This document shows positions 39,734 to 63,466 of a DNA stretch of 64,000 nt, piece by piece. The DNA comes from Metallumcola ferriviriculae (lineage in GTDB: Bacteria; Bacillota; JADQBR01): contig NZ_CP121694.1 in assembly GCF_035573695.1 (NCBI RefSeq), positions 2,084,501-2,148,500 of the forward strand, in the 5' to 3' direction. Positions within the stretch are counted from its first letter, which is position 1. Every line of letters begins with the position of its first letter. The notes below the pieces were generated by a model. It did not search any database and was not told the origin of the DNA. It saw only the letters and a list, made by a program, of their open reading frames with translations. Made by a program: the position numbers and the translations under genes.

Positions 39734-39784
39734 ATTAAATGAAATATTGGCTTGAAAATTCGTTCTATTCTGCGAGGTGTTTGC

Positions 39785-41518
39785 ATGGCATTAATCAAGG
39801 ATGATGTGGTTAAATCTTTGGATATAAAGAATGACCTAGTACTGGATTCTATGCATAATGGTGTGGTTGCGGTGGACGCCAACGGAATTATTGTGGTTTT
39901 CAATAAAACCCTTCAACGGATTTATGGTTATTGCGAAAGAAGGGTATTGGGCAGGCACATTGAAGAAATTATTCCATATACGGGTCTATTAAAAGTTTTG
40001 GAAACTGGCAAATCTCATATTGGCCGGAAATTTACTATTGGTGATGCTGTTTATTTAACCAATAGGACGCCAATTATTTCAAGAGGCAAAGTCATTGGTG
40101 TTATTGGAGTAATTCAAGAGATTACTGAACTGCAAAGTATTGTGGAAGAGTTGCAGATGGTAAAAGACTTAAAAGGAACAATGGAAACAATTATTGAAAC
40201 GGCATACGACGGCCTCATTGTAGTTAACCGTGAAGGTATTGTTACAATGGTAAATAATGCTTTTGCCAGTTTATTGGGGCGTTCCGCGCAGAGTGTCATG
40301 GGTAAACATATTACTGAAATTATGGAAAATACCCGTATGCATCTGGTGGTTAAGAATGGTCGTGCAGAAATTGGTGATTTGCAGCGAATCAACGGACAAG
40401 ATGTGGTGGTGATGCGTTTTCCTATTAAAAAGGACGGGCGTACCATCGGTGCGGTTGGGAAAATTATGTTTAAAGATGTTCATGACCTCAACGCATTGGC
40501 CCAAAAAATCAATTCTTTGCGTAGCGAGTTGGCTTATTATAAGGGTGAATTGCAGCGCTATCGGGGCGCTAAATATGGTCTAGAAAATATTATCGGTGAT
40601 TCTCGAGAAGTTAGTCGGCTTAAAGAAACGTTGGCAAAAGTAGCCCAAAGTACATCCACAGTCCTCATCACTGGCGAGACAGGTACTGGCAAGGAGTTAT
40701 TTGCTCACGCATTGCATTTAGAGAGTAATAGGCGATACGGTCCGTTTATTAAAGTTAACTGTGCTGCAATCCCTGAACAACTGTTAGAATCCGAACTATT
40801 TGGTTATATTGAAGGAGCATTCACGGGAGCTCGTAAGGATGGGCAGGTGGGCAAGTTTGAATTGGCTGACAAAGGGAGCATTTTCCTAGATGAAATTGGT
40901 GATATGTCTCTGCCGTTGCAGGCAAAACTGCTGCGGGTGCTGCAAGACAAGGAGATAGAACGATTAGGTGATGCCCGTACTCGTATGGTAGATGTAAGGG
41001 TTGTTGCCGCTACAAATAAAAATGTCGAAGAATTGATTAGAAAAGGAAAATTCCGCGAAGATCTATACTATCGTCTTAATGTAATCAGCTTAACCATACC
41101 ACCTTTGAGAGAACGGCATGACGATTTAAAGATACTGGTAAAACACTTCATTGATAAGTTTAATTTTGAATTTTCCATCCAGGTTAAGGGACTAACTGAA
41201 CAATGTTGGAAGGTCTTCCTACATCATCACTGGCCGGGTAACGTAAGGGAACTGGAAAATGTGTTGGAAAGAGCATTTAATGTAGTGGAAGGCGAAAACA
41301 TTAAGGCGAAAGATTTACCGATGTACTTACAGAAAGCTGGTCAATCCGGAAAAGTTATTGGTCAACATCAGTCCTTACAGGTACTGCTGGAGCAGACGGA
41401 AAAAGTTGCCATTAAAGAAGCGTTAGACTTAACCGCTGGTAACAAAGTGCAGGCGGCTAGTTTATTGGGAATATCCAGGGCTTGGCTTTATCAAAAAATC
41501 CAAAAGTATAGCTTATAG
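39785..41518 (+). CDS. sigma-54-dependent activator, PAS-PAS-AAA+-Fis
   Basis: 577 aa from ATG 39785 (GCGAGGTG upstream; an open frame reaches 39752). Two N-terminal PAS domains (about 20-110 and 135-230), then an AAA+ domain with Walker A GETGTGKE, the sigma-54 contact loop GAFTGA and Walker B IFLDEIGD, ending in a Fis-type helix-turn-helix (NKVQAASLLGISRAWLYQKI). There is no receiver domain, so the PAS domains probably sense the signal directly. It precedes the acyl-CoA synthetase, whose upstream region has a -24/-12 promoter, so it is the likely activator of the acyl-CoA cluster. It may bind TGTAAAC-type sites. Confidence 0.9.
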   Translation: MALIKDDVVKSLDIKNDLVLDSMHNGVVAVDANGIIVVFNKTLQRIYGYCERRVLGRHIEEIIPYTGLLKVLETGKSHIGRKFTIGDAVYLTNRTPIISRGKVIGVIGVIQEITELQSIVEELQMVKDLKGTMETIIETAYDGLIVVNREGIVTMVNNAFASLLGRSAQSVMGKHITEIMENTRMHLVVKNGRAEIGDLQRINGQDVVVMRFPIKKDGRTIGAVGKIMFKDVHDLNALAQKINSLRSELAYYKGELQRYRGAKYGLENIIGDSREVSRLKETLAKVAQSTSTVLITGETGTGKELFAHALHLESNRRYGPFIKVNCAAIPEQLLESELFGYIEGAFTGARKDGQVGKFELADKGSIFLDEIGDMSLPLQAKLLRVLQDKEIERLGDARTRMVDVRVVAATNKNVEELIRKGKFREDLYYRLNVISLTIPPLRERHDDLKILVKHFIDKFNFEFSIQVKGLTEQCWKVFLHHHWPGNVRELENVLERAFNVVEGENIKAKDLPMYLQKAGQSGKVIGQHQSLQVLLEQTEKVAIKEALDLTAGNKVQAASLLGISRAWLYQKIQKYSL

Positions 41519-41658: not shown

Positions 41659-41674
41659 TGGTATTTAACTTGCA
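41659..41674 (+). promoter_or_regulatory. sigma-54 (-24/-12) promoter of the acyl-CoA synthetase gene
   Basis: TGGTATTTAACTTGCA fits TGGCAC-N5-TTGCA with correct spacing and intact GG and GC. It is 135 bases upstream of the start codon, downstream of a sigma-54 activator gene. Confidence 0.7.
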
Positions 41675-46401: not shown

Positions 46402-46417
46402 TGGCATAATTTTTGCA
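46402..46417 (+). promoter_or_regulatory. sigma-54 (-24/-12) promoter of the thiolase-mutase operon
   Basis: TGGCATAATTTTTGCA is a near-perfect TGGCAC-N5-TTGCA, 64 bases before the thiolase ATG. Confidence 0.85.
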
Positions 46418-50897: not shown

Positions 50898-51419
50898 ATG
50901 CAAAAAGGTTTACTGATGGTTTATACCGGAAACGGAAAAGGAAAAACTACAGCTGCTTTGGGTCAAGCAATAAGGTCATTGGGACATGGTAAAAGAGTTT
51001 TTATGCTTCAATTTATGAAGGGAAGCCCCAATTACGGGGAAGTAATTATGTCAAAAAAACTTACCGGTTTTACTATGGAACAGTGGGGCAGAGATGAATT
51101 TGTTCATCCAAAACAACCTGAGCAGATAGATATTGATTGGGCCCAACGGGGGCTTTTGAGAGCTAATGAAGTAATTCAGTCAGGTGAGTATCAATTAATT
51201 ATATTGGACGAACTAAATGTCGCATTAGGTTTTGGATTGGTATTCTGGGAACAGGTCGAAGAACTGTTAAATACTAAACCTAAGATACTTGACTTAATCA
51301 TTACTGGGCGTTATGCGCCGCCAGCACTGCTTAAACGGGCTGATTTGGTAAGCGTCATTGATGAGCATAGGCATCATTATCAAAGTGGTGTAGAAGCCCG
51401 CGAGGGCATTGAATATTAA
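50898..51419 (+). CDS. cob(I)alamin adenosyltransferase, CobA/BtuR type
   Basis: 173 aa. P-loop [19 protein letters not shown], the [10 protein letters not shown] Walker B segment and [17 protein letters not shown]. It makes adenosylcobalamin, the cofactor of the B12 mutase encoded directly downstream; that placement explains why it lies in a fatty-acid operon. No other B12 synthesis gene is nearby. Confidence 0.93.
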
Positions 51420-51436: not shown

Positions 51437-53095
51437 ATGGCGAATAAAAAGATACAGCAGGAATATGACCGCTGGTATAAAGAGAAATACTCTCAATCAA
51501 AGGAACGTTCGGCTGAGTTTGTAACAGTGTCAGAGCAGCCGATTAAAGAGTTATATACCCCTGCAGATGTAGAAAATCTTGATTACGAAAGAGATTTGGG
51601 CTTTCCAGGAGAATACCCATATACTAGAGGTGTGCAGTCAAACATGCACAGGGGTCGTTTATGGACTATGCGGCAATTTGCTGGTTTTGGCAGTGCCCAA
51701 GAATCTAACCAGCGTTACAAATTTCTTTTATCGAAAGGCCAAACAGGTCTAAGTGTTGCTTTCGACATGCCAACTTTGATGGGCTATGATTCCGATCACC
51801 CATATTCTGAAGGGGAAGTTGGCCGGTGTGGAGTGGCCATTGATTCCTTGGCGGATATGGAAGTGCTTTTTGATGGTATTCCTTTGGATAAAGTCAGTAC
51901 ATCGATGACGATTAATGGACCTGCAGCTATCTTATGGGCGATGTATATTGCCACTGCGGAGAAACAAGGTGTTAGTTCGGAAAAATTGAGAGGGACGATT
52001 CAAAATGATATTTTAAAAGAATACATCGCCCAAAATTCTTGGATATTTCCGCCGCACCCTTCCATGCGGATCATCACAGATATCTTTGAATATGCCTGCA
52101 ACAATGTTCCACAATGGAACACCGTTAGTATCAGTGGTTATCACATTAGGGAGGCAGGTTCGACGGCAGCTCAGGAATTGGCCTTCACCTTGGCTGACGG
52201 TTTTGCCTATGTGGAAGCTGGTATTGAAGCAGGGTTAAATGTAGATGACTTTGCACCGCGACTATCCTTTTTCTTTAATTCTCATATGGATTTCTTTGAG
52301 GAAATAGCCAAATATCGTGCGGCTAGAAGAATATGGGCCCGGCGGATGAAGGAAAAGTATGGAGCAAAAGACTCTCGGTCGTGGCTGCTACGCTTTCACA
52401 CTCAAACTGCTGGTTGTTCACTAACCGGCCAACAACCAGAAAATAATATAGTACGGACGGCTTTTGAAGGTTTGGCAGCGGTATTGGGGGGCACTCAGTC
52501 TCTGCATACCAACTCTATGGATGAAGTGTTAGCATTGCCCACTGAAAAATCTGTTCAGATTGCATTACGTACTCAACAAATAATGGCTCATGAAACCGGT
52601 GTTAGCAATACTATTGATCCATTAGCGGGGTCATATTTTGTCGAAAGTCTGACCAATGAGATGGAGGCGCAGGCAGAAAAATACTTCGAAGAAATTGAAG
52701 AACACGGTGGAGTATTGAGGGCGATTGATAAAGGATTTTTCCAGCAAGAAATTGCCGACGCTGCTTTTGCTTACCAGAAAGCCATTGAACGTAAAGAACG
52801 CATTTTTGTAGGTGTTAATGAATTTGTAGACCCGGATGAAGTGATTGAAATTGAGATATTAAAAATTGATCCGGCTGTAGAATCTAGACAGCAGCAAAAA
52901 TTGGCTGAGTTGCGCAAGACAAGAAATAATGACTTGGTGGATAATAGCTTAAAAGCTATTGAAAGGGCTGCTTCTTCACGCGAAAACCTAATTCCGTTAA
53001 TTGTTGACGCTGTTAAGGCTTATGCTACCTTAGGCGAAATAGTCCAGGTGCTTAAAACCGTCTTTGGCGAATATAAAGAACAGCCTAGATTCTAG
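51437..53095 (+). CDS. icmA: isobutyryl-CoA mutase large subunit (by specificity residues)
   Basis: 552 aa, AGGGGGGACAGAGG before ATG. It is the substrate-binding TIM-barrel subunit of the acyl-CoA mutase family: [11 protein letters not shown] near residue 60, [16 protein letters not shown] (105-120), [11 protein letters not shown] (187-196). In methylmalonyl-CoA mutase the substrate carboxylate is held by Tyr89 and Arg207 (Propionibacterium numbering). The aligned residues here are Phe81 (MRQFAG) and Gln199 (YIAQNS), which match Phe80/Gln198 of Streptomyces IcmA. The length (552 versus about 566) and the separate small subunit also match IcmA/IcmB. Alignment was done by eye. The reaction would be isobutyryl-CoA to n-butyryl-CoA. 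Confidence 0.85.
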
Positions 53096-53107
53096 GAGGG
53101 GAAAAAG

Positions 53108-53506
53108 ATGACCAGAAAAATTAGGGTACTAATGGCGAAGCCCGGGCTGGATGGCCATGATCGAGGTGTGAAAGTGGTTGCAAGAGCTCTGAGGGATGGA
53201 GGCATGGAAGTAATTTATACCGGCTTGCATCAAACGGCTGAAAAGGTTGTAGCTGCAGCCATTCAGGAGGATGTTGACGTGGTGGGTCTTAGTATTTTAT
53301 CCGGGGCCCATATGACGATGTTTCCTAAAATTCGTAAGTTGTTAAATGAGAATGATTGTGGCAATATCAAGATTGTCGGTGGGGGAACTATTCCCGAGGA
53401 CGATTTAAAACAATTATTAGCAGCTAAAGATGCGGATGCATTATTCACTCCAGGAACATCTACTGATGATATTGTTGCCTGGATTAAGGAAAATGTTGAG
53501 ATATAA
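53108..53506 (+). CDS. icmB: B12-binding small subunit of the acyl-CoA mutase
   Basis: 132 aa, the length of IcmB (about 136). B12 domain with the lower-ligand motif DGHDRGVKV (His17), then [12 protein letters not shown] and [10 protein letters not shown] for the nucleotide tail pocket. It forms a complex with the large subunit encoded 12 bases upstream and carries adenosylcobalamin. No MeaB-type GTPase chaperone gene follows; a terminator ends the operon. Confidence 0.9.
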
Positions 53507-53519
53507 TTAATACCGTTCC

Positions 53520-53558
53520 AGCACTTATGTGTTTCTAACATGTAAGTGCTTTTTTTTA
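53520..53558 (+). terminator. terminator of the thiolase-mutase operon
   Basis: AGCACTTA (53520-53527) pairs with TAAGTGCT (53543-53550), followed by eight T. Confidence 0.88.
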
Positions 53559-56535: not shown

Positions 56536-57288
56536 ATGAGGGACCATGTGCGACTACAAATAGAAGGTACAGTAGCTAAAATGCATATAACAAATTCGGA
56601 AAGAAAGAACGCGATAAGTGCTTCGATGTGGATAGATATCGTTAATAATTGTGAAAAGTTATTTAGTTTGAATAAAATTAGGGTCGTAACAATTAAAGGA
56701 GAAGGGGGTAATTTTTCGTCGGGGGCAGACGTGTGTGACTCGCGCCCTGAAAACATTATTGCGCTGCATAATATAGTGGAGAAGGCTGTAATGGCTATTG
56801 AAAAAATTACTATTCCAGTAGTTGCAGTGTTAGAAGGATATGTGTTAGGGGGACGGCTAGAGTTAGCTCTTGCTTGTGACCTTAGAATAGCATCCGATGA
56901 CTGCCGTTTAGTCATTCCGGCTGCAAAAAGAGGCATTGGCATTACTCAAAATAATAGTTAGCGTTTGGTACGTCTTCTGGGTCCGGCTCGGGCAATGCAA
57001 ATACTTTTTACTGGAGAAACGCTAACTGCTGATACGGCGTTGCAATGGGGGCTGGTAAATCAGGTAGTTGCCCAGTCAGACCTGCCGATTAAAGCTGCCA
57101 ATTTAATAACTATTTTGGACCAAAATGCACCTCTTTCTTTAAAAGCTGCCAAAAAAAATGTCCAAAGCACTTGGTCTATCTTGGATGATGAAGAAGACCT
57201 AGCGCAGCAATGCTGTTTTAGTGATGATTATCAAGAGGGAATTAGGGCTTTTTTAGAAAAAAGAAAGCCAAACTTTAAAGAGAGGTAA
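56536..57288 (+). pseudogene. enoyl-CoA hydratase/isomerase with internal amber codon
   Basis: AAGGAGGTGATCG precedes ATG 56536. A single in-frame TAG at 56959-56961 splits an otherwise continuous crotonase of about 250 codons. The codon stands where the family has Gln in GGTQRL (here NNS-stop-RLVRLLG), so one CAG to TAG change explains it. Other departures: GGRLELALACD for GGGLELALACD, keeping the first catalytic Glu, and VIPAAKRGIG for the usual PE-x-x-LG, losing the second. The C-terminal half is complete. It was probably already altered in function before the stop. Confidence 0.8.
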
Positions 57289-57292
57289 GACT

Positions 57293-59186
57293 ATGGGAAA
57301 GGTCTTTGAACCGATACAAATTGGTAAGGTGACATTAAAAAATCGAATTGTAGCTTTGCCGGTGGTGCAGAACTTTGCAACTGATGAGGGAAAAGTTACA
57401 CCTCAAATGGTTTCTTGTTATCGCCGAAGGGCTGAGGGCGGAGCAGGATTGGTCACAGTTGAAGCCACATATATCAGGCCAGATGGAAATGCTTTTTGGG
57501 GGATGCACGCGCATGGTCTGATAAGCACATTATAGGATTGAATCTGCTAGCTGAGGCTATTCACGAAGGGGGAGCCAAGGCCAGCATTCAATTAATGCAT
57601 GGTGGACGCCAAGGCAAATTCTTGGGTCACAGGTACTACACCCATAGCGCCAAGTACTTCCGCACAAGGAGTTTTTGAGGGTTATACTGATGATGGAGCT
57701 GCTGCTGTCAAGGAATTAAGCACTAAGGAATGTGAAGAACTTGTCCAAGACTATGCTGACGCAGTTTGGAGAGCTTATGAGGCAGGTTTTGATATTGTGG
57801 AGCTGCATGCAGCCCATGGGTTTCTATTACAGCAGTTTCTATCACCTTACACCAACCACCGTTCCACAAGTACGGTCAGCGGTTTACATTCATAAAAGAA
57901 CTAATAGAATTAAGTCGGGCAAGATGTGGTAGTGATTATCCGTTAATTGTAAGGCTATCTGTTGATGAGTATGTCGGCGATAAGGGCATAACTTTACCAA
58001 TGGGTAAACAAATCGCTAAGGGGCTTGAAGATCTAGGAATAAATGCTATTAGTGTGAGTTTCTCGGTTGCCGAAACAGTGACCCATAATGTGGAGCCTAT
58101 TTATTGGTCGGGGGCGGGCGCATACCCATTACCCGGGAGATTACGGAAATTTTGGATATTCCAGTGATAGGACGTGGTCGGATTAATGATCCTATTCTGG
58201 CTGAAAAAGTGGTTGCGGACGGAAGTGTAGACCTAGTTGGTCTAGCACGGGCCATAATTGCAGACCCTGATTTCCCACGTAAGATGCAAGAAGGCCGCCG
58301 GGGCGATATTCGTAAATGTATTGGTTGTGATGTGGGTTGTGCCGATAGGCTTTTCGCTCAAAGAAAAATTCGCTGTGCTGTTAACTTTGATTACGGTCGA
58401 GAAGACGAGGCGTGGGCTGGTTTAATGTCTACCAAAGATCCAAAGGATATAGCGGTGATTGGAGGAGGACCCGCTGGCATGGAGAGTGCCCGGGGTCTAG
58501 CGTACCGAGGGCATAATGTCACATTGTACGAGAAAAGCGACTCGTTAGGAGGTTTAGTTTTAACGGCGTCAGCCATACCATATTTGAATACCAGAGATCT
58601 TCGTAATGCTTTACCCTGGCAGAAACAAGAACTTGATAGGGCAGGGGTTACCGTAATCATGAACAAAGAGATTTCCCCTGAAGATGTAGAAACTATGAAT
58701 GTTGATGCAGTGATTCTTGCCACTGATTCCGAGCCGGCCTATCCCGCTATTCCCGGAGTACAGCTTCCTAATGTGGTACATGTTTATGATTATATTAATA
58801 AGCAGGGGGCACTGGGTAAAAAAGTAGTGGTTATTGGTGGTGCAGAGGGTGCGGAGGCGGCAGTGTCTATTGCGAGAGAAGGCCATGCGGTCACGGTAAT
58901 CGAGGAAAATTTGGAAGCGGGCGCCGCAGATTATATTTATCCAATAAGGCGCAGTGAACTGCAAGAGTATCTAGGTGATGAAAAAGTAGAGGTTCTTCTT
59001 AATACCTCAGCAGTTAGGATGGAAGATGACGGGGTCGCTGTTACTGATTCCCAGGGTGATGAAAAGACTATTGAGGCGGATACTGTTGTTATTGCTTACG
59101 CCAGAAAATCTAATGGTAATGCTCTAGTGGAAGCTTTGCGCAAAAAAGGTATCCCAAATTATAGCATTGGAGATTGCAATGAGCTG
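57293..59186 (+). pseudogene. OYE/2,4-dienoyl-CoA reductase-like flavoenzyme, frameshifted and truncated
   Basis: Begins MGKVFEPIQIGKVTLKNRIV, an old-yellow-enzyme barrel. Homology changes frame near 57505, 57615, 57860 and 58110. From 58110 one frame runs to about 59186: GRIPITREI, the [4Fe-4S] ligands CIGCDVGCADRLF...C, then FAD/NADH domain with AVIGGGPAGMESARGLAYRGH and VVIGGAEGAEAAVS. It ends at SIGDCNE, just where the final conserved helix should start, and continues into the tail of an acyl-CoA synthetase. The intact gene resembled 2-enoate or 2,4-dienoyl-CoA reductases. Confidence 0.8.
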
Positions 59187-59374
59187 TTGTGGTGCCAAAG
59201 CCGGGACATTCTACCGACGAAAACGAAATTATCGGGTTCTGTAGAGGTAAAATTGCTGGTTATAAACGGCCGCGTAAAGTAGAATTTCTTAATTCTTTAC
59301 CTCGCAATCCTTCGGGGAAGGTGTTAAAAAATAATTTACGTCAGACATTCGGGAGTGTAAATAACAATGCCTAG
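59187..59374 (+). pseudogene. C-terminal remnant of an acyl-CoA synthetase
   Basis: Only the AMP-binding C-terminal subdomain survives: ENEIIGFCRGKIAGYKRPRK and LNSLPRNPSGKVLKNNLRQ, including the catalytic Lys region. The rest of the gene, about 1.3 kb, is missing, so a deletion has joined it to the reductase pseudogene. Its stop overlaps the start of the next gene, which suggests an original operon. Confidence 0.78.
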
Positions 59375-59896: not shown

Positions 59897-60688
59897 TCAG
59901 AGTTCATTTATCACTCGATTAACATGAGCCTCGCCCACAATTTTTTCACCCTGAATATAGGCATCTAAAAGGGCCTGACTAGCCAGGGTATTGATTTTAC
60001 GGGGAACCCCTTGGGTATAGTTGTAGATGGCCTGGATAGCTTCCCCGGAGAAGATATCACTTGGCGTTTCAGATATCTTTTCTTGATGCCTGATAAACTC
60101 CTCCGTCTCCTTTTCACTTAAAGCTCCCATCTGGAATCTAACCTGTATCCGCTGATCAATAGCCTCTAAATGCCGCACTTTGAGCTGGTTTCTTAGTGTT
60201 GTCTGGCCTATCAAAACCAGTGCCAATGGAGACATAGAATCTTCTTTAAAGTTTAGTAGAAATCGAATTTCTTCAAGCATGGTTTCTGAAAAACGATGCG
60301 CTTCATCTAGGACAATTACTGGAACTTTCTTGTCCTGTTCATACATATCAAGCATCAAAGTCCGGTACTGACGCTTCATTTCTGTAGGCCTCGTGGAACA
60401 AGGTACCCCGAAACGCTCTAAAATTTCTCTGTAAAATAGCTTTGGTGTCAGCGACGAGTCACAGATGTATTCATAGCGGTAATGCATGGTGTCAAGCTTA
60501 TGCAAAAGGGAACGGACAATGGTGGTTTTCCCCATACCCGGCTCTCCAGTTAAAAGAAACACCAGCCGGTTCTTCACTGTATACTCCAGGCGGGCTTTTG
60601 CTTCCTTGTGGCTTAGAGAAACGAAGCATTGGTTAGTATCAATTTCCCGGGTGAAAGGGACTGTCTTCATACCAAAAAAGTCTAACAT
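59897..60688 (-). CDS. ExeA-type AAA ATPase of a transposon
   Basis: 263 aa. Walker A TGEPGMGKTT near residue 48, Walker B VIVLDEAHRF near 128, sensor LVLIGQTTLRNQ. It is similar to TnsC/ExeA-like helper ATPases encoded after DDE transposases. Starts MLDFFGMKTVPFTREID; the ATG overlaps the end of the transposase frame, indicating translational coupling. The reading frame is intact. Confidence 0.85.
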   Translation of the reverse strand: MLDFFGMKTVPFTREIDTNQCFVSLSHKEAKARLEYTVKNRLVFLLTGEPGMGKTTIVRSLLHKLDTMHYRYEYICDSSLTPKLFYREILERFGVPCSTRPTEMKRQYRTLMLDMYEQDKKVPVIVLDEAHRFSETMLEEIRFLLNFKEDSMSPLALVLIGQTTLRNQLKVRHLEAIDQRIQVRFQMGALSEKETEEFIRHQEKISETPSDIFSGEAIQAIYNYTQGVPRKINTLASQALLDAYIQGEKIVGEAHVNRVINEL

Positions 60689-61376
60689 GGTGTCTCACCC
60701 CAGGTCTTATCTTCAAGCTTTACGAAGCTGGTGGTGCCAAGCTCTTTTCGCTGTTTTTCTTCCTGCTCTTTTTTGAGGTTTTCTAAATAACTAGAGATAA
60801 AACCCGGCGATTGCTCCTCTAATTCATCGGGCATCTTTGGGTGACGCTTGTTGTTAATTACAGCTGCCTTAGCATCGTCATAGCGCGTGCCGTCTTTGTA
60901 GACACGGATCAGGGATAAATCAAAAGGGTTATAGCGTATCTGAATTCTTTTGCCGCGTAGGAACGAATCTACCTCATAAAGGTTACCTTCTACCTCAATC
61001 ACCGAGGTTTTACGTACTGTCCGTTCTCCCTCCCAGAGAAAGATTTCTTAAGTTCGTTCGGTGTCAGATGACGGATATGGGAGGTATTTTCTTCATACCT
61101 TTGTTTTGGTGTCTGTTTGGTGCTGCGGTGGACTCGGTTATCGTAAGTTTCAAGCCAGGAGCGAAGATAGGTATTAAGCTGTTTTAAATCGAAAAGCTTT
61201 CCGTGATTAATCAACAGATTGGCCTCGTTGGTGAAGCTTGAATCAACGTATCTGAAGAATTTTTCTACCTTGCCTTTTGACTCTGGACTGTAGGGCCTTG
61301 CGTGCAAAAGTTTTGTGCCCATATGGGCACAGATTACCTGGAACTGCTTAGCACTGTAAACCGAACCATTATCGAC
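60682..61376 (-). pseudogene. DDE (rve) transposase, 5' truncated and frameshifted
   Basis: Reading from 61376: NSVDNGSVYSAKQFQVICA (an Asp of the DDE triad), then LLHARPYSPESKGKVEKFFRYV with the Glu. A single-base frameshift near 61030 separates this from the C-terminal part (RTVRKTSVIEVEGNLYEVDSF to GETPC). The N-terminal half is missing because another element has been inserted at 61373-61402. Non-functional as seen. Confidence 0.8.
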
Positions 61377-61402: not shown

Positions 61403-61495
61403 ACTATACCGAAGAAAAAACTATGCCGAAAAAACCCGGGAATACGCTCCATATCTGCGTTTCCAGCTGAAATTTCGGCATAGTTTGGCTATAGT
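61403..61495. repeat. recombinase-binding array at the element end
   Basis: ACTATACCGAA (61403-61413) and ACTATGCCGAA (61420-61430) on the plus strand, TTCGGCATAGT (61474-61484) inverted, and a degenerate TTTGGCTATAGT (61484-61495). The 14-mer AAACTATGCCGAAA (61418-61431) has an exact inverted copy at 61473-61486. Together with the palindrome there are five ACTATnCCGAA copies within 110 bases. Confidence 0.75.
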
Positions 61496-62517
61496 TTGTA
61501 AAGTCTCTCTGAATACTCTTTGCTTTTCCATGATTTTTCCATGTCAGAAGGGTTCGCCCTTTCCAACGACTTCGAAAGCGTCTCCAGCGTAGCGAAAGCA
61601 TAAAAACCTGACGTCGTGGAGAGAACCTCATGTCCTAAAAGCTGCTGTATATGGGTCAGTGGGACACCTTCCTGGTACAGATGCATGGCTCTGGTTTTTC
61701 TGATCATATGGCAGTGAACGTTTCCCGGCATTGACAGGCATGTATCCGACAACTTTTTTGCATATCTTTTTATCATTTTTTCAGGGGTGTCAATGGATAG
61801 CCCATGCGCTTTCCCGTGCGTCTTAGCATAAAATAATGGCGCGTCAGTGCTTTCATACTCTGATCCATGAAACTCTCGAAGATAGCGCTTTAGATGTGCC
61901 AGCGTGCTATCCATCAGAGGGACATTCCTGTATTTCCGGCCTTTACCAAAGAATGTCACATGGGGTATGGACGCATCCATGTGCAGGTCGCACAACCTTA
62001 CCTTTAGTGCTTCCGAAACCCGCGCTGCGGTGTCGTACAAAAAAATGAGCAGCATCTGGTTTCTACGTTCTAGCTTTTTATGTGTGTCCGGTGCTGCCAT
62101 CAAAGCAGACATGGCTTCACGTTCGAAGAATTCAATGGGCGCCTGCGTCAGCCTTATCCCTTTGATCGTGCCTGAACTTATGCAGATAGGCATGATATCT
62201 ATACATTCCTGTGATGCGTATTCCAAAAGGGAGCGCAATGCCGTCAGCCTAAGGTTGCAGGTTTTTGGGGCTAGTTGCGCGGTTTTGTGCATCCACAACA
62301 TGTATCCCTTGATGTTTTCCCTATCAAGCATCTTAAAGCTGATGTCTTTGCGCTTGGCGCCCTTCTCTGACTCAAGGTAATCAATATAACGGTTTAGGCA
62401 ATTCCTGTAGGATGCTACAGTGTTGGCACTTGCCCTCCTGATGTCTGGTAGATAGTTGTTAAGAAACTCAGCCGCAATGCTCCAAAAGAAAGCGTTGTCT
62501 TCAGCTCTGTTCTTCAT
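61489..62517 (-). CDS. tyrosine recombinase, third gene of the trio
   Basis: 342 aa from ATG 62517, set by GGAGGTG six bases upstream (an open frame reaches 62589). N-terminal SAM-like domain (1-110), catalytic domain with Arg in DTAARVSEAL, HCHMIRKTRAMHLY, LLGHEVLSTTSGFYAF and the Tyr nucleophile near residue 315. Its stop overlaps the terminal binding array. Its start overlaps the preceding gene by 17 bases. Confidence 0.88.
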   Translation of the reverse strand: MKNRAEDNAFFWSIAAEFLNNYLPDIRRASANTVASYRNCLNRYIDYLESEKGAKRKDISFKMLDRENIKGYMLWMHKTAQLAPKTCNLRLTALRSLLEYASQECIDIMPICISSGTIKGIRLTQAPIEFFEREAMSALMAAPDTHKKLERRNQMLLIFLYDTAARVSEALKVRLCDLHMDASIPHVTFFGKGRKYRNVPLMDSTLAHLKRYLREFHGSEYESTDAPLFYAKTHGKAHGLSIDTPEKMIKRYAKKLSDTCLSMPGNVHCHMIRKTRAMHLYQEGVPLTHIQQLLGHEVLSTTSGFYAFATLETLSKSLERANPSDMEKSWKSKEYSERLYKL

Positions 62518-63466
62518 GTGGCACCTCCGGCACAAGGGATTCCAAAGCTCGCGCTTTTTGCGAGAAGGCACCAAAATATTCGGGCACAAAATGGAAATAG
62601 TACAGTGTACTCTGAATATGGGCGTGCCCCATATACCTCATCAAGAACGCCAACATTACATTGACGTCTTTGCCTTGCTCAGCCCAGCGGTTCAGGTTTG
62701 CATATGCGAAGTGATGTCGAAAATCAAATGCGCGAGGCTTGATTGGCGAGCGAAAATGTGGGAGTGCCCCCCTCCAAATTCTGTTGAAATTTGCAGAGAT
62801 AAAGCTTTCTTTGTATGGTTCGCGCTGATTTCGTGGAAAGAAATATGCCCGGTCAGGAATAATGCAGGACATTCGCTTGTCATATCTATATAAAACCTCG
62901 GTCAGCTCGTCGCTGATGAAAATGCGCCTGCTGCGGCCTTTGGATGCTTTGATATCAATGTACTTGTCGTCAAGACATACGTCACTGTGCAGAAGCATAC
63001 GCGCTTCCCTGCACCGGAGACCGCAACAATATAACAGACGGAATACCGCCGGGATGACCAATTCTCTCCCAGGCCATTCCTTTCTTTTTTGGATTTTGTC
63101 GCAACAGTTAAAAAATGCCCTGATCTCGGTCGCTGTGAAAAAATGGGGCAAATGAGGTTCCAGCTTCCCACCCCGCTTGGGCGGAAGGATATACGCGTTG
63201 TCGTATCCGTTCATGCCAAGGTACTTACCAAACTCCCTAATAACGGCTGCCATGTTGTACAGGCAGCCGGGGTTGTCCACCGCCCTGGCATACCAGCCGG
63301 ATACAAGCTCCCTGTCAGGGACTTGGATAGTTGGATTATTCGATTTAGCATACGTCAAAAAGTTTCTTAGATAATATTCACCTGTTTCGTACTTAACCCC
63401 CAATGCCCTTTTGTACGTGAGGAATTGCTCAGCCAAACGGTCCATGGATGCAGATATGTCATTCAT
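62501..63466 (-). CDS. tyrosine recombinase, second gene of the trio
   Basis: 321 aa. Catalytic Arg in YCCGLRCREARMLL, PRAFDFRHHFAY, MGHAHIQSTLYYFHF with the Tyr near residue 290. The motif MGHAHIQSTLYYF and a longer insertion before it are typical of the middle RIT recombinase. Both ends overlap neighbours by a few bases, so the three genes are translated together. Confidence 0.87.
   Translation of the reverse strand: MNDISASMDRLAEQFLTYKRALGVKYETGEYYLRNFLTYAKSNNPTIQVPDRELVSGWYARAVDNPGCLYNMAAVIREFGKYLGMNGYDNAYILPPKRGGKLEPHLPHFFTATEIRAFFNCCDKIQKRKEWPGRELVIPAVFRLLYCCGLRCREARMLLHSDVCLDDKYIDIKASKGRSRRIFISDELTEVLYRYDKRMSCIIPDRAYFFPRNQREPYKESFISANFNRIWRGALPHFRSPIKPRAFDFRHHFAYANLNRWAEQGKDVNVMLAFLMRYMGHAHIQSTLYYFHFVPEYFGAFSQKARALESLVPEVPHEEQS

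Follow-up and report, generated by a model that had tools for sequence, protein, structure and literature searches.

The two genes at positions 51437–53506 of the window most probably encode a two-subunit, adenosylcobalamin-dependent isobutyryl-CoA mutase (IcmA and IcmB) that would serve the oxidation of isobutyrate via butyryl-CoA, a reading to which we assign a probability of about 0.82. The window is the whole 64,000-nucleotide stretch of DNA analysed here and corresponds to positions 2,084,501–2,148,500 of the single 3,720,236-bp contig that makes up the genome of Metallumcola ferriviriculae. The proposed reaction is deduced from residues of the active site, from the phylogeny and from the surrounding genes, all three of which support what a preliminary description of the sequence had proposed, namely that the enzyme would act on isobutyryl-CoA rather than on methylmalonyl-CoA.

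Both reading frames are intact, lie 12 nt apart and are each preceded by a Shine–Dalgarno-like sequence (Table 1). With lengths of 552 and 132 aa and matches to TIGR00641 and TIGR00640, they are the separate subunits of IcmA and IcmB type that had been posited. The pair closes a seven-gene run, thl-hbd-acad-acad-cobA-icmA-icmB, in which the intergenic gaps measure 10–42 nt, and icmB, the last gene, is directly followed by a strong terminator-like hairpin of 14 pairs and a T run (53520..53550, + strand). The CobA-type protein scores 166.1 bits with TIGR00708, under the NCBIfam cut-off of 167.75. The order thl-hbd-acad1-acad2-cobA-icmA-icmB recurs in two relatives of the same family (L123 and L125), which also keep the acyl-CoA synthetase, and L125 carries an SSS-family symporter at the same position as in the window. 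Another cluster (L124) reads hbd-acad1-acad2-cobA-icmA-icmB, the fetched stretch starting at hbd, and similar clusters with crotonase and/or MeaB inserted are found in L006, L007, L127 and L129; the window cluster contains neither crotonase nor MeaB.

Table 1. Features of the mutase cluster and its surroundings (window coordinates)
Feature	Position	Strand	Basis
PAS-PAS-AAA+-Fis sigma-54 activator, 588 aa, GAFTGA motif	39752..41518	+	domain and motif matches
sigma-54-type promoter-like site TGGTATTTAACTTGCA	41659..41674	+	about 150 nt 5' of acyl-CoA synthetase
AMP-forming acyl-CoA synthetase, 555 aa	41810..43477	+	MbcS/acetate-CoA ligase models closest
SSS-family sodium/solute symporter, 546 aa	43964..45604	+	VC_2705/ActP-like models, under equivalog cut-offs
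predicted membrane protein without family, 184 aa	45704..46258	+	homologue at matching place in L125
sigma-54-type -24/-12 promoter-like site TGGCATAATTTTTGCA	46402..46417	+	top score of the window, about 65 nt 5' of thl
thl, acetyl-CoA C-acetyltransferase (thiolase), 397 aa	46481..47674	+	PRK08235, 629.2 bits (cut-off 526)
hbd, 3-hydroxybutyryl-CoA dehydrogenase, 284 aa	47688..48542	+	PRK05808, 453.8 bits (cut-off 408)
acad1, short-chain acyl-CoA dehydrogenase 1, 380 aa	48563..49705	+	NCBIfam
acad2, short-chain acyl-CoA dehydrogenase 2, 379 aa	49748..50887	+	NCBIfam
CobA/CobO-type cob(I)alamin adenosyltransferase, 173 aa, P-loop GNGKGKTT	50898..51419	+	TIGR00708
icmA, IcmA-type large subunit, 552 aa; Phe81, Ala108, Gln199, His236	51437..53095	+	NCBIfam, alignment, tree
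icmB, IcmB-type B12-binding small subunit, 132 aa; DGHDRG at residue 15	53108..53506	+	NCBIfam, motif
second PAS/sigma-54 activator, 464 aa	54766..56160	-	

The gene complement of the cluster suggests a route from the free acid to acetyl-CoA. The symporter is likely to take up monocarboxylates and would import isobutyrate, which the AMP-forming synthetase would convert to isobutyryl-CoA. In a radical 1,2-shift of its CO-CoA group, this ester would then be rearranged by the mutase to n-butyryl-CoA, and the acyl-CoA dehydrogenase, 3-hydroxybutyryl-CoA dehydrogenase and thiolase of the cluster would carry this intermediate on to two molecules of acetyl-CoA, with the requisite crotonase and ETF encoded outside the cluster and the adjacent CobA-type adenosyltransferase supplying or repairing the B12 cofactor. 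Functions available in trans comprise at least 12 intact crotonases, three ETF pairs and two MeaB-type GTPases. The catabolic direction is suggested by the presence of the symporter, the synthetase and a sigma-54 activator in the cluster. Were the enzyme instead to run from butyryl-CoA to isobutyryl-CoA, yielding isobutyrate either as a product or as a building block, this would agree with the reversibility of the reaction and with the existence of anaerobes that form isobutyrate from butyrate (PMC7764203), but genes that point to uptake and catabolism, and a cluster devoid of any CoA-transferase, thioesterase or kinase for acid release, make this direction unlikely.

Two near-identical ETF pairs of the genome (G000:C1:1,885,545-1,886,826 and 3,105,791-3,107,072) lie in opposite orientation. 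A crotonase-like gene in the window (56536-57288, + strand) is broken by one in-frame TAG, and two further crotonase matches, of the 16 in the genome, carry one internal stop each (TGA and TAA). The neighbouring gene for an FMN/FAD-dependent reductase (57293-59360, + strand; Oxidored_FMN and pyridine nucleotide domains) has its pieces in different frames and looks like a pseudogene. These broken genes are adjoined by ATPase- and transposase-like fragments of a mobile element (59897-61322, - strand), after which comes an integrase-family gene (61489-62589, - strand).

Alignment with solved structures places Phe81 (in TMRQFAGF) and Gln199 of the window protein in the columns of MutB Tyr89 and Arg207, in agreement with the assignment made by eye in the preliminary description, and His236 in that of the catalytic His244. 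The MutB row from the PDB is the Y89F mutant, and its chain indices are one lower than the MutB numbering because Met1 is missing from the PDB sequence. Phe598 and Gln742 of IcmF (PDB 4xc6; a 20-residue offset subtracted) share the columns of Phe81 and Gln199, and a natural IcmF (L141) was aligned as well. The small subunit contains the cobalamin-binding motif DxHxxG. The substrate site of Streptomyces IcmA has Phe80 and Gln198; a literature search for these residues and for active-site substitutions of pivalyl-CoA mutase found nothing. Since Phe/Gln is the pair of IcmF, and IcmF takes several branched esters, being reported as active on isovaleryl- and pivalyl-CoA too (PMC10481361), an isobutyryl-type mutase with these residues might have another branched acyl-CoA, for example isovaleryl/pivalyl-CoA or 2-methylbutyryl-CoA, as its main substrate, and two acyl-CoA dehydrogenases lie in the cluster. 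However, the clustered hydroxybutyryl-CoA dehydrogenase and acetyl-CoA acetyltransferase fit a C4 chain and a similar cluster is found in a known isobutyrate degrader, so that we regard a preference for another substrate as quite improbable. There is likewise only a slim chance that the cluster serves, under sigma-54 control, the use of a branched acid of greater size, each of its two acyl-CoA dehydrogenases being responsible for a different chain length.

Among solved structures, the closest match of the window protein is the 2-hydroxyisobutyryl-CoA mutase HcmA (PDB 4r3u; 581 bits), with which it shares approximately 50% identity, split subunits and the Gln that replaces MutB Arg207. The three substrate positions are occupied by Ile90, Asp117 and Gln208 in HcmA (after subtraction of an 11-residue tag) and by Phe81, Ala108 and Gln199 in the window protein; thus, the Ile90/Asp117 signature is absent, as had been noted. 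An enzyme of this kind would pass 3-hydroxybutyryl-CoA to the adjoining dehydrogenase and thiolase, both of which are in the cluster, but the two acyl-CoA dehydrogenases would then be superfluous, Phe and Ala replace the Ile and Asp of HcmA and of two plasmid homologues, and the proteins of HcmA type form a clade of their own with full support in a tree of 87 mutases, all of which leaves this activity very unlikely.

The residue pairs segregate strictly across homologues. Among the natural mutases fetched, 92 have Phe and Gln and 30 have Tyr and Arg, with no mixed Phe/Arg or Tyr/Gln pair seen in these 92 and 30 proteins, a separation that chance would hardly produce; Ala108 is found in both groups. 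The combination of Ile, Gln and Asp is confined to two natural mutases, both plasmid-borne and of HcmA type, and to the HcmA structure itself. Column 114 likewise divides the groups fully, with Leu/Ile in the Phe/Gln proteins and Gln/His in the Tyr/Arg proteins. The loci on genome contigs were found with patterns derived from the query, one of which (AFDMPTLM) favours the Phe/Gln type; a homology search of 61 genomes, free of this bias, also recovered no mixed pair. The neighbourhoods differ as well: an adenosyltransferase lies within 1.5 kb of 17 of the 92 Phe/Gln mutases versus none of the 30 Tyr/Arg mutases, whereas an epimerase or SucD occurs within that distance at 1 of the 92 and 14 of the 30 loci, respectively. 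The homologues on Streptomyces plasmids (L115 and L118) are Tyr/Arg proteins, and a tblastn search of plasmid records with a tentative Streptomyces IcmA sequence gave no match above 60% identity, so that this sequence was left out of the evidence. Two kinds of variant were encountered in this survey. Phe/Gln mutases from deltaproteobacterial assemblies (L042, L063 and L065), with adenosyltransferase, acyl-CoA dehydrogenase and MeaB as neighbours, have AFHFP in place of AFDMP, the Asp-to-His change being situated two residues past the column of HcmA Asp117. A more distant mutase (L140:1899-3662, + strand; genome G005), adjoined by MeaB and SDR genes, carries Leu, Leu and Asn in the substrate columns, and TLNGYNF replaces SISGYHI.

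In the tree of 87 mutases, the residue labels fall into blocks, with 7 changes for 8 labels as compared to a mean of 34.5 after shuffling. The window mutase groups with its same-family relatives L123 (84% identity) and L125 and then with further Bacillota, to which its nearest named homologues belong. In a second tree, from which the three signature columns and the longest rows were removed, the Tyr/Arg proteins lie on one side of a branch with a support of 84, which is not strong. When the window protein is constrained to join them, the log-likelihood falls by 78.9 units (p-AU about 0.0035). The expectation that the protein would neither carry Tyr and Arg at the two sites nor nest among methylmalonyl-CoA mutases is therefore matched by both alignment and tree. 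The IcmF homologue is placed among the Phe/Gln proteins, on a very long branch, and the fused IcmF is the one characterised isobutyryl-CoA mutase in the comparison, the tree containing no characterised split IcmA; for these two reasons, the tree speaks more firmly for the window protein not being a methylmalonyl-CoA mutase than for its being a sister of IcmA. A methylmalonyl-CoA mutase of propionate metabolism is highly improbable, because, despite approximately 50% identity to human MUT and MutB and a generic methylmalonyl-CoA mutase domain as the sole NCBIfam model above cut-off, Phe and Gln replace the carboxylate-binding Tyr and Arg, the tree rejects membership and the genes of that pathway sit with a separate Tyr/Arg mutase locus, none of them being in the cluster.

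That separate locus is one of several, as the host genome encodes five mutase large subunits, i.e. four besides that of the window. Approximately 200 kb from the window cluster, a Tyr/Arg mutase (L002/L130) is encoded together with SucC and SucD, an epimerase, its own small subunit and a methylmalonyl-CoA decarboxylase subunit of MmdA type, and on these sequence grounds this is a genuine methylmalonyl-CoA locus. Given the company of epimerase, succinyl-CoA ligase and MmdA, the genome probably does contain a methylmalonyl-CoA pathway, away from the window cluster. Hence, the earlier statement that a propionate pathway is unsupported stands for the cluster, where genes for epimerase, carboxylase/decarboxylase and SucCD are all lacking, but it does not extend to the genome as a whole. 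Three further mutases remain. One (L131:7328-8962, - strand; = L003) is a Tyr/Arg protein with the altered segment SIAGAHFRDAG, lies among CoA-transferase, crotonase, SucCD-like and TRAP transporter genes and possibly acts on another dicarboxylic ester. In another (L133:7917-9608, + strand; = L004; genome 1,502,461-1,504,089), the substrate columns hold Leu, Val and Ser, and Asn takes the position of the catalytic His (SYNGYN); this mutase is adjoined by a CoA-transferase, MeaB, a small subunit and a FabG-like dehydrogenase; the mutase and the dehydrogenase are reminiscent of a set that acetone induces in D. cetonica (PMC7888143), although no thiamine enzyme was found adjoining. The fifth (L132:5762-7423, - strand; = L005) shares the His-to-Asn change, differs from it in the substrate columns by Thr instead of Ser (Leu, Val and Thr) and lies in a neighbourhood of thiolase, crotonase, acyl-CoA dehydrogenase and hydroxyacyl-CoA dehydrogenase genes, along with those for aldehyde:ferredoxin oxidoreductase-like and M24 peptidase-like proteins.

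Regulation of the cluster may depend on sigma-54. Promoter-like sites of this type precede both thl and the synthetase gene in the window, and L123 has its two best matches approximately 80–95 nt 5' of the same two genes, whereas L125 has one match just 5' of thl. The consensus and weights were taken from general knowledge (Barrios-type) and do not amount to a calibrated model, and sites with similar scores turn up 0–4 times per window-sized random sequence, so that a single site is not significant; the sites are noteworthy because their position repeats in relatives and an activator with a GAFTGA motif is encoded nearby. This PAS-PAS-AAA+-Fis protein is the likely regulator of the cluster and would turn on the run from thl to icmB; in L123, the synthetase gene is likewise preceded by a homologue of this regulator. 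The second PAS/sigma-54 activator, downstream of icmB, is a possible alternative. Matches to sigma-70-type promoters are rarer in the cluster than chance would predict.

Clusters of this type are already known from isobutyrate-degrading syntrophs, and the window accordingly represents a corrected annotation rather than a new system. Syntrophothermus lipocalidus TGB-C1 degrades isobutyrate by isomerisation to butyrate followed by beta-oxidation, and its mutase subunits, adenosyltransferase and a MeaB-like protein are encoded together (Slip_0757-0760; PMC5017805). Compared by description, the mutase is split in both systems and a cob(I)alamin adenosyltransferase is encoded next to it, but the window cluster is without the MeaB-like protein and adds the symporter, the acyl-CoA synthetase and possible sigma-54 control. 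In IcmF, a single polypeptide comprises the B12 domain, the GTPase chaperone and the mutase, as opposed to two chains in the window, where no GTPase is encoded in the cluster and the mutase reaches 382.7 bits with the IcmF model NF045497 (cut-off 1500). MutB and human MUT (PDB 1req and 2xij) belong to the same family and share the catalytic His, but keep Tyr89/Arg207, have a B12 part that is not separate and are found among other neighbours. The enzyme of Streptomyces cinnamonensis (IcmA/IcmB; EC 5.4.99.13), with Phe and Gln at its substrate site, has two subunits like that of the window, but is tied to the supply of polyketide precursors, whereas icmA of the window sits among beta-oxidation genes. 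To this background, the present analysis adds a tree test, the strict residue pairing over 122 homologues, a contrast within one genome and the possible sigma-54 control.

As anticipated in the preliminary description, automatic annotation would miss the identity of the enzyme: in NCBIfam, only a generic ‘methylmalonyl-CoA mutase N-terminal domain’ model is passed, and homologues in plasmid records are named ‘methylmalonyl-CoA mutase family protein’. Mislabelling of IcmF-type isobutyryl-CoA mutases as methylmalonyl-CoA mutase has been reported before, as cited in PMC7764203. The two-residue test, clean in the homologues sampled, could re-label many genes of the ‘methylmalonyl-CoA mutase family’, and the co-occurrence of the window mutase with a genuine methylmalonyl-CoA mutase in one genome makes a direct test easy. 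What generic labels may lose could be exemplified by ‘Ca. Contubernalis alkaliaceticus’, for which growth on isobutyrate was reported but no genes for it were found in the genome paper (PMC10608574). In the present case, such a label would conceal the very step that enables the anaerobic use of isobutyrate, which valine fermentation commonly yields.
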